Virus record (IMG/VR): IMGVR_UViG_3300032296_000404
Location: 1-37,572 of that record
DNA from: a virus
Direction: 5' to 3' (one strand)
DNA: 37,572 nucleotides
A program made the position numbers and the translations under genes. A model generated the notes under the pieces. It saw only the letters and a program-made list of their open reading frames with translations. It ran no database searches and was not told the origin of the DNA. This document shows positions 35,763 to 37,536 of this stretch, piece by piece. Numbering within the stretch: the stretch's first letter is position 1; each line of letters begins with the position of its first letter.

Positions 35763-35996
35763 TCACAGGCTCATGTTGCCTTCGTACTTCTTGATTCCAC
35801 CGCGAGGGCCGACGATTGCAAAAAAATCAGCAGTGTTTTGGAACCATGCCAAGTCGCCGTGGATGTTGGTTGCAGCAAACAAAAGTTTGTCGTTGCCCAA
35901 CTCTTGAACCGTAAAGGACAGTCGGCCTTGGTGATATTGCTGTGACAACAGGTTGGTAGCGCGGCGAATTGCAGATTGTTGGTTTGCGTTCATCAT
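35763..35996 (-). CDS. first early gene, small DNA-binding-like or regulatory protein
   Basis: Protein of 77 aa with MMNANQQSAIRRATNLLSQQYHQGRLSF and a beta-rich second half (FTVQELGNDKLLFAATNIHGDLAWFQN). It is first after the control region and ends before a terminator, so it should be made first and most strongly in the early block. That is the place of early regulators or host-takeover proteins, but I recognise no family. Start ATG 35996 (ATGATG). Confidence 0.68.
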   Translation of the reverse strand: MMNANQQSAIRRATNLLSQQYHQGRLSFTVQELGNDKLLFAATNIHGDLAWFQNTADFFAIVGPRGGIKKYEGNMSL

Positions 35997-36010
35997 TTAG
36001 CTCCGTTAGG

Positions 36011-36028
36011 CATCGCGTTGTTGCGATG
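36011..36028 (-). repeat. perfect inverted repeat CATCGC-N6-GCGATG
   Basis: Two six-base arms with a six-base centre (GTTGTT), close to the predicted start of early transcription. It could be a repressor operator overlapping the start site or a hairpin at the 5' end of the mRNA. Confidence 0.55.
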
Positions 36029-36031
36029 GAT

Positions 36032-36042
36032 GAATCCTAGCA
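36032..36042 (-). promoter_or_regulatory. candidate extended -10 promoter of the early operon
   Basis: On the minus strand TGCTAGGATTC contains TG-N-TAGGAT, an extended -10 box. The -35 region is poor, as is usual for extended -10 promoters. The predicted start lies in the inverted repeat at 36011-36028. This is the only good promoter-like element before the early genes. Confidence 0.45.
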
Positions 36043-36067
36043 CGACACAAGCGTCACACTACAGTGG

Positions 36068-36080
36068 AAACCCTAGGTTT
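36068..36080. repeat. short palindrome AAACC-CTA-GGTTT
   Basis: A 13-base palindrome with 5-base arms, just upstream of the -35 area of the early promoter. Possibly an operator or activator site. No other copy was found nearby. Confidence 0.35.
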
Positions 36081-36178
36081 TGCAGGTTTTTTATCACTTG
36101 CTTTGCGCTTTGTTGTGCAAGAATGCGCCCATCTGTCGGACTGGTAACCCGGCAGAAGCACACAACTGCGAACAACCG

Positions 36179-36286
36179 AACCCTTATTGTGGGGGCGGGC
36201 TTCGTCAAAGCGCATGGAAGGTGTTGTGGCCAACCATGTTGCGGCAAACCAAGCCTAAGGCCCGTATCTCACAATAAGGGTTTTTT
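36179..36286 (+). ncRNA. folded small RNA closed by a 13-pair stem and U tract
   Basis: AACCCTTATTGTG (36179-36191) pairs perfectly with CACAATAAGGGTT (36270-36282), followed by TTTTTT. Inside, GGG pairs with CCC and GGGCTT with AAGCCT, and CATGG pairs with CCATG near the tip with a TGG/CCA pair inside. The result is a rod with a terminator-like end, not an mRNA: the frames across it are poor shadows. Transcription to the right from upstream of 36179 is needed. The family is unknown. A phage regulatory RNA or an origin-linked RNA would fit. Confidence 0.5.
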
Positions 36287-36291
36287 GTTTG

Positions 36292-36560
36292 GTGCTGCGT
36301 ACCCGTCAGGGCGCGTTAGCTGATGGGCCTGCATGGGCTGCACCCGAGAAACACCGGCACTTGTTCACCCCAAGGCTTGCCGTCCGGCCTGTTAGCGAGG
36401 GACCGGGAAAGACGGTGCGGCAAGTGGTGAAGACAAACGCGCCATCGAAGGAATCGCTACCTCATGGGACGCTTGGGGTCTTTGACGGGATCAGAGACTT
36501 GGAGCCGGGAAGAAAGCTGCGGGGCTTTCACCCTTGGGGAACCTATGCTTAAATAGCAAA
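36292..36560 (+). other. further hairpin-rich non-coding DNA before the Dps-like gene
   Basis: TTCACC (36364-36369) pairs with GGTGAA (36426-36431), CTTGCC (36376-36381) with GGCAAG (36419-36424), and the inner part has TCCGG/CCGGG. GAAAGC (36512-36517) and GCTTTC (36524-36529) form a perfect six-pair hairpin. One open frame of 87 codons runs through it from a TTG at 36289 without a ribosome site and is judged not to be a gene. The region may be a 5' leader or part of the replication origin. Confidence 0.35.
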
Positions 36561-36575
36561 AGGGCAAAAAAAGAG

Positions 36576-36584
36576 TTATCCACA
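36576..36584 (+). promoter_or_regulatory. perfect DnaA box TTATCCACA
   Basis: An exact match to the DnaA consensus lies in an A-rich stretch (aaaaaaagag just upstream), overlapping the ribosome site region of the next gene. No second perfect copy was found in the control region, so this may mark part of a replication origin or a DnaA-controlled start. Confidence 0.5.
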
Positions 36585-36593
36585 GGGGCAGTC

Positions 36594-36992
36594 ATGCGAT
36601 TCGCAATCAACGAAGCTCAAGAGCAAAACGACCCGGTGATGGCATTCACCATGCATCTGCTTCACAGCGTCACCAATGCCCACATCCTGCACCTGACGAC
36701 CCGCAGCTACGCAGAGCATCAGGCACTGGGCACTTTCTACAGCGAGATTGGCGACCTTGTAGACGCATTCGTTGAAGCCTTCCAAGGCAAGTACGGCCTG
36801 CTCCACGACTTCATCGCAGACTACAAGCTACCCGGCACCGACCCCGTGGCCTACCTCGAAATGCTCAAGGTAGAGGTAGAAACGCTCCGTAGGGCACCTA
36901 AGTTCCCTCAAGACGCAGAATTGCAGAATGAGGTGGACAACATCGCCAACCTCATCAACAGCACGCTCTACAAGCTGCGCTTTCTTGGCTGA
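36594..36992 (+). CDS. Dps/ferritin-like helical protein
   Basis: Protein of 132 aa from ATG 36594 (ribosome site AGGGGC); the frame is open 60 bases upstream, but no start fits better. LLHSVTNAHILHLTTRSYAEHQALGTFYSEIGDLVDAFVEAFQG carries the His, Asp and Glu spacing of a helical metal-binding bundle, as in small phage Dps-like proteins (DUF5856 type). Such proteins may bind metal or protect DNA. The gene follows the control region and could be an early plus-strand gene. Confidence 0.68.
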   Translation: MRFAINEAQEQNDPVMAFTMHLLHSVTNAHILHLTTRSYAEHQALGTFYSEIGDLVDAFVEAFQGKYGLLHDFIADYKLPGTDPVAYLEMLKVEVETLRRAPKFPQDAELQNEVDNIANLINSTLYKLRFLG

Positions 36993-37219: not shown

Positions 37220-37536
37220 GCCGAGATTACGACGCCATCTACAACACCTCAGCATGGCGACAACTCAGGACCGCACAGCTATCCCGTCATCCCCTATGCC
37301 AAGCCTGCCTAGTCGAAGGCAAGGTGACCTTGGCCCTCCATGTGGATCACGTCTTCCCGTGGCGCAGATTCGGGGAACAGGCATTTAGGCGCAACATCCT
37401 CCAAAGCCTCTGCCAAAGCCACCACAGCTACAAGACCGGGCTAGAACAGCGCGGGATATACGAGGCGTACACAGACAAGGTGGAGCAGTTCACCGATGAT
37501 GACTACGCACGCGTGGTTGCGGAGAGGTTAGGGTAA
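37114..37536 (+). CDS. HNH endonuclease of the packaging region, apparent AUC start
   Basis: 140 aa if translation starts at ATC 37114, which follows GGGAGG at four bases, where an ATG would be expected; the frame has a stop at 37054 and no ATG, GTG or TTG until 37321. The product reads PTSPFNTKCSHLGCKNPRSKL after the start, with Cys-x4-Cys and Cys-x2-His fingers, then Cys-x2-Cys (LCQACL), the HNH core HVDHVFPW, NILQSLCQSHHSYKTG. This is the terminase-linked HNH type needed for cos packaging in HK97-like phages. An N-terminal truncation, frameshift or sequence error is the alternative. Confidence 0.8.
   Translation: MPTSPFNTKCSHLGCKNPRSKLNSYCLDHGGKESLSRDYDAIYNTSAWRQLRTAQLSRHPLCQACLVEGKVTLALHVDHVFPWRRFGEQAFRRNILQSLCQSHHSYKTGLEQRGIYEAYTDKVEQFTDDDYARVVAERLG

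Follow-up and report, generated by a model that had tools for sequence, protein, structure and literature searches.

Between the leftward early genes and the rightward genes of an uncultured phage lies a perfect stem followed by a run of six uridines, and the question is whether this hairpin is a plain terminator, a small RNA or part of a larger element. The window, meaning the whole stretch of DNA that was analysed, is a 37,572-base virus record from IMG/VR. Its PHROGs matches include the large terminase, an O-like replication initiator, NinB, an exonuclease and an Erf annealing protein, together with a single-strand binding protein, an endolysin and HNH proteins. An earlier note, made from the sequence, had proposed an unrecognised structured RNA of about 108 bases at 36179-36286, terminator-ended and unlike a simple terminator, and had suggested that it might serve in regulation, as a decoy or in replication.

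RNA1, a structured phage RNA family

The perfect closing stem, the folded interior and the six-U tail are all present where the earlier note placed them. All 13 closing pairs form between AACCCUUAUUGUG (36179-36191) and CACAAUAAGGGUU (36270-36282), and the minimum free energy of the hairpin is -52.3 kcal/mol, compared with -32.9 +/- 3.6 for shuffled sequences (z -5.4, 0/200). Interrupted by one bulge, this stem, P3, reaches inward to 36202/36258, and at its outer end there is an additional pair, 36178/36283. The two internal helices, P4 and P5, were drawn correctly, but their loop-loop contacts with two additional hairpins on the 5' side were overlooked. Size and extent were also misjudged: the RNA, termed RNA1 here, measures about 155 nt (approximately 36130-36286), and the noted hairpin represents its 3' half only. 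Alignment of 79 related stretches places the true onset of the conserved RNA 48 or so bases before the noted start. P1 (stem strands 36132-36139/36149-36156) and P2 (36158-36160/36167-36169) stand outside P3 on its 5' side, while P3 encloses P4 and P5. The features of the locus are as follows.

36098-36124, plus strand: weak promoter-like TTGCTT-15-AAGAAT, recognised by eye against the TTGACA-17-TATAAT-like promoters of relatives at the same place
36130-36286, plus strand: RNA1, structured non-coding RNA with terminal U-run (match to model R1, covariation)
36132-36156, plus strand: P1 hairpin with loop ACUGGUAAC at 36140-36148 (fold; 6/6 modelled pairs covary)
36142-36145, plus strand: P1 loop UGGU, kissing the P5 loop ACCA at 36248-36251 (compensatory UGGC:GCCA copies)
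36158-36169, plus strand: P2 mini-hairpin with loop CACAAC at 36161-36166, kissing the P4 loop GUUGUG at 36223-36228 (fold, covariation)
36178-36202, plus strand: 5' strand of the P3 terminator stem (fold, covariation)
36210-36242, plus strand: P4 hairpin with loop GUUGUG at 36223-36228 (fold, covariation)
36243-36255, plus strand: P5 hairpin GGC-AAACCAA-GCC, with invariant stem and loop ACCA at 36248-36251 (alignment, fold)
36258-36283, plus strand: 3' strand of the P3 terminator stem (fold, covariation)
36281-36286, plus strand: six-U tail (sequence)
36303-36547, plus strand: E2 type a, a second large structured non-coding RNA (25/40 predicted pairs change on both sides; non-coding)

Relatives were collected by two routes. 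The conserved block just downstream of RNA1 (36303 on) served as a query that returned more than 100 viral contigs, and in most of these a hairpin and T-run directly precede the block. The 79 stretches came from scanning viral contigs for GGCAACCAAGCCTAAAGCYC, an interior motif of the relatives of the window hairpin. Alignment A2 comprises 53 distinct RNA1 sequences, including the window; the structure was set by hand from one member (L141), and pairs were then counted over A2.

Across the 53 sequences, 94.9% of 2648 cells are paired, against 80.6% in shuffled alignments and at most 44.5% when the structure is slid, a control biased in favour of the structure because the latter was read off one aligned sequence. 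Changes on both sides affect 31 of 50 pairs. The covariation score reaches 0.383, compared with 0.129 +/- 0.006 in shuffles (0/500) and no more than 0.093 in slid controls. Double-change cells number 355 against 104 in shuffles, a large excess even allowing that kinship among sequences can raise them above shuffles in the absence of any structure. The earlier note had made its proposal depend on covariation of the closing stem among relatives, and that stem covaries. Model R1, whose 53 sequences include the window, matches 36130-36284 with 103 bits, and the features defining the family (P1-P5 and both loop-loop pairs) all occur in the window. Two segments, GCUUCGUCAAAGC and GCGGCAACCAAGCCUAAAGC, are near-invariant in the alignment.

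Searches for known families returned no convincing assignment. Rfam at curated thresholds gives no match in the window, and relaxed searching (E <= 5, 35900-36700) gives implausible sub-threshold matches only. The c4 antisense RNA model (RF01695) has no match in the window at its gathering threshold and none at E <= 5 in 35900-36700. The phi29 packaging RNA model behaves likewise, with no match in the window and none under relaxed settings in 35900-36700, and the GOLLD, ROOL and HEARO models have no match in the window or in 25 related loci. No earlier description of RNA1 was found in the literature, in a search that covered chiefly openly available journals. RNA1 is thus a real phage RNA family, previously undescribed and without an Rfam match, and its massive covariation bears out the unrecognised structured RNA that had been proposed.

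The 3' half of RNA1 is a predicted intrinsic terminator, in which a G+C-containing P3 stem is followed at once by U6. A simple terminator scan permitting loops of 3-8 only did not call it. Regarding initiation, a standard promoter scan found none at 36098-36124 in the window. Promoter scores of at least 9/12 occur in 49% of RNA1 upstream flanks against 4% of shuffled ones, and in many relatives a sigma70-type -10 element lies a few bases upstream of the RNA1 start. Together, covariation and these promoters directly upstream in relatives strongly support the view that the element ends in a terminator and exceeds a simple one.

Loop-loop pairings and RNA1 subtypes

The P1 loop UGGU can pair with the P5 loop ACCA, and both are nearly invariant. 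This pairing was predicted first, and P5 loops with a changed first base of ACCA were then sought. The scan returned GCCA copies of RNA1, one of which (L106) was already known; the P1 loop is UGGC in nearly all of them and UGGA in one. After deduplication, the counts are 57 UGGU:ACCA, 5 UGGC:GCCA, 1 UGGA:GCCA and 1 misassigned partial copy, with the variant copies all resembling the clade of the window and so representing few independent changes. Scans for variants at the two C positions of the P5 loop returned unrelated coding DNA only.

The second pairing is far more variable. In the window, the P2 loop CACAAC and the P4 loop GUUGUG match over 6 bp, and both are predicted to be open loops (unpaired probability ~1). 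All six P2xP4 pairs change on both sides in the 53-sequence alignment. At least six complementary bases occur at nearly fixed positions in 58 of 63 RNAs, and the mean length of the longest complement is 6.0 nt for loops of one RNA and 4.6 nt for loops of different RNAs. The 58 RNAs carry 29 distinct P2 6-mers, with complementarity nearly always kept. As candidate trans-pairing sequences, the P2 6-mers do not find targets above chance in E2 and the flanking 450 nt.

Among 142 pairs of RNAs that differ by at most 10% elsewhere, kissing-loop sites differ by 42%, compared with 0.5-13% in other helices and 9% at unpaired sites. One example is the pair L162 and L188, whose 46-nt flanks are identical, whose E2 starts are 97% identical and whose RNA1 bodies show two differences, alongside 3+3 compensated changes in the P2xP4 loops. 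Positive selection on these loops is not claimed as proven, because recombination between alleles could give the L162/L188 pattern and the comparison is among RNA1 sites rather than with a neutral rate.

In some loci, hairpins of other sequence precede the same downstream block. Subtype C has a 5' loop (such as GUAGGAA, GUCGAAA or GUAGUUGU) that complements a segment within the terminator hairpin; this loop pair is variable, and the longest complement averages 6.7 compared with 5.2 across loci. Subtype B displays long complementary matches, judged by eye. Neither subtype is convincingly detected by model R1 (at most 14 bits). Both share the RNA1 plan with different sequences, and their kinship is unproven, resting on plan instead of homology.

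E2 elements, gene setting and distribution

The earlier note overlooked a second structured RNA 3' of the hairpin. This element, E2 type a, is closed by a 5' CC...AGGG that pairs onto CCCUUGG. An open reading frame of 87 aa (36289-36552) lies over it and was rejected as a gene, since any given frame is open through E2 in at most 11 of 69 copies. In a Manatee Spring record (MW202484.1 33533-33892; L002:2939-3298), an annotated hypothetical protein spans an RNA1-like terminator and E2, and is probably the same open reading frame artefact and not a gene.

In most copies, E2 begins shortly after the RNA1 U-run, and reading of the short gap revealed no obvious promoter. It comprises five or more types without an Rfam match, and RNA1 is kept while the type varies. 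Downstream of 51 of the 58 type-A RNAs lies a sequence of one or another of five E2 types; in the other 7, the downstream sequence lies outside the E2 patterns used, and some of it is coding.

Several copies depart from the basic arrangement. A stem-enclosed tRNA-like stretch lies inside E2 type b at L144:3327-3442 (minus strand) and L201:1667-1782 (plus strand), scoring 33.7 bits with the Rfam tRNA model and carrying a long insert; ARAGORN calls no tRNA at either place. An extra stem-closed domain separates the RNA1 terminator from E2 in L019, L026, L028, L059, L064, L067, L125 and L129, several of which are subtype C, and in L026, L125 and L129 it holds a segment resembling a tRNA T-arm. L047:2105-2410 and L055:6619-6924 carry a tandem duplication of the initial part of E2 type a. 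Near position 3401 of L136, E2 type a seems collapsed, with its 5' end running straight into CACCCTTGGGGAACCTATG, the conserved 3' end.

RNA1 sits between a leftward early block, whose outermost open reading frame ends at 35996, and rightward genes from 36594. The first long downstream open reading frame is codirectional with RNA1 in 45 of 50 loci and on the opposite strand in 5, and several loci lie near replication genes. In the window, the first gene after E2 (36594-36992, plus strand) matches phrog_858, named as a starvation-inducible transcriptional regulator. Further along, an HNH endonuclease frame (37324-37536, plus strand) seems to begin upstream of its first ATG/GTG/TTG.

In collections of isolated phages and plasmids, type-A queries gave credible relatives only in Manatee Spring records, the other rows being weak chance matches. 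The E2 block also occurs in one contig of the genome collection, a metagenome-assembled genome. Among 22 records with a TerL related to that of the window, model R1 gives one weak match (19 bits) and the E2 block gives 3-mismatch matches only, at chance level, while the near-identical contig behind L003 carries the RNA1-E2 module. No RNA1 subtype was seen upstream of TerL in the 8 of these 22 that were inspected; subtypes that R1 does not detect could still occur among them. The module is mosaic and probably accessory in this phage type. Most records of TerL relatives lack it, so this type of phage can do without it. No integrase was found in the window or in 22 other records, which makes lysogenic immunity unlikely.

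Possible roles of the RNA1-E2 module

Direct support exists for the RNA1 fold, for both kissing pairs through covariation, for the promoter signature of relatives, for the position before E2 and for the non-coding nature of E2. The reading tentatively preferred here is a leader and terminator, locked by kissing loops, that would control read-through into E2. RNA1 would be a compact non-coding leader transcribed from its own promoter. The P1 and P2 loops of its 5' half would dock, within one molecule, onto the P5 and P4 loops inside the terminator stem, drawing the terminator into a single tertiary structure in which it is either folded or held back. This structure may set how frequently RNA polymerase terminates at the U-run and how frequently it continues into E2 (36303-36547), and may thereby control expression of E2 and of the downstream genes. 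A cis role is favoured because E2 follows shortly after the U-run without an obvious promoter and the next genes are mostly codirectional. The lambda 6S RNA, or pR'-tR' late leader, is likewise short and terminated and is transcribed from a sigma70 promoter ahead of a gene block; its read-through is Q-dependent. Lambda 6S RNA is not known to have a kissing-loop fold, and RNA1 differs in usually being followed by another structured RNA. A regulated terminator alone does not account for the rapid change of the P2xP4 loops. Such turnover suits recognition between RNA1 molecules better than a leader, and the accessory spread suits a free small RNA.

It is possible, if rather unlikely, that terminated RNA1 is itself a stable trans-acting product (a sponge, a decoy, an anti-defence RNA or an inhibitor of a host machine), with E2 as a second effector of the same accessory cassette. 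The relatives' promoter signature, the terminator, the compact fold with its nearly invariant segments, the mosaic presence and the lack of an integrase in the records searched are all consistent with such a product. It leaves unexplained, however, why E2 lies so regularly close behind with no evident promoter, and the sole target search, using the P2 6-mers, was negative.

An unlikely proposal is that the hypervariable loops pair between RNA1 molecules, so that RNA from one genome would promote termination (or assembly) solely on RNA1 molecules that carry its own allele. By analogy with P4 CI RNA or c4 RNA, this could provide copy control or exclusion of superinfecting phages with the same allele. 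The divergence of kissing loops in otherwise similar RNAs, the compensated L162/L188 changes and the separate variable loop pair of subtype C point in this direction. There is also a precedent, as RNA-RNA pairing by P4 CI causes premature termination before replication genes (PMC4825925). Yet the expected covariation is identical whether pairing occurs in cis or in trans, allele recombination could yield the L162/L188 pattern, and lysogenic immunity is disfavoured as noted above. The P4 CI RNA/seqA-seqC leader and c4 of P1-like phages resemble RNA1 as phage leaders near replication genes with internal complementary segments. Transcription termination within the P4 leader (PMC4825925) can be likened to the predicted RNA1 terminator, and complementary loops are also present in RNA1. 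P4 CI, however, arises by processing of a primary transcript and base-pairs with seqA and seqC, the segments up- and downstream of itself, whereas in RNA1 the loop-loop pairs are arranged around an intrinsic terminator, with no known processing and no integrase found.

Very unlikely is a cis-acting antitermination leader like HK022 put, in which RNA1, E2 or both would bind their own polymerase and cause later terminators to be ignored. Like RNA1, put is a promoter-proximal structured phage RNA of the early region, and it binds RNA polymerase and suppresses pausing and termination (PMC9378689). RNA1 heads mostly codirectional genes, with several loci near replication genes. Unlike put, it ends in a terminator and has a different fold, and most relatives lack it, so that their transcription must work without it. 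That RNA1 is merely an unusually long intrinsic terminator with incidental folding is scarcely credible: its stem and U6 make a good terminator by sequence, but covariation in the outside hairpins, two long-range pairings and strongly conserved loop sequences contradict this.

Other phage RNAs offer partial parallels. The phi29 packaging RNA is of similar size to RNA1 and has complementary loops; its loops join different molecules in the packaging motor, and its gene setting differs. GOLLD and ROOL are comparable to E2 rather than to RNA1, being phage-borne and heavily structured with kissing loops. In GOLLD, tRNAs sometimes lie in the linker (PMC12286853), and some E2 copies hold a tRNA-like stretch. 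GOLLD is much larger than E2, with many members exceeding 800 nt, and E2 lacks an Rfam match. The literature read on GOLLD and ROOL describes no linked RNA1-like leader.

These findings add a new RNA family without an Rfam match from uncultured phage contigs. They also reveal a cassette of two parts, a conserved leader and, behind it, one of several large RNAs that are unrelated to each other. With the E2 elements come new candidate ornate RNAs that can be compared with GOLLD and ROOL. Quite unlikely on present evidence is the idea that RNA1 acts as an allele code, in which two hypervariable complementary loops would allow phages that share the same water to recognise their own RNA and disregard that of others, controlling a mobile cassette of interchangeable ornate RNAs, some with tRNA-like inserts. 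The fast-changing yet matched loops offer a direct and cheap test of RNA-based self-recognition between phages.
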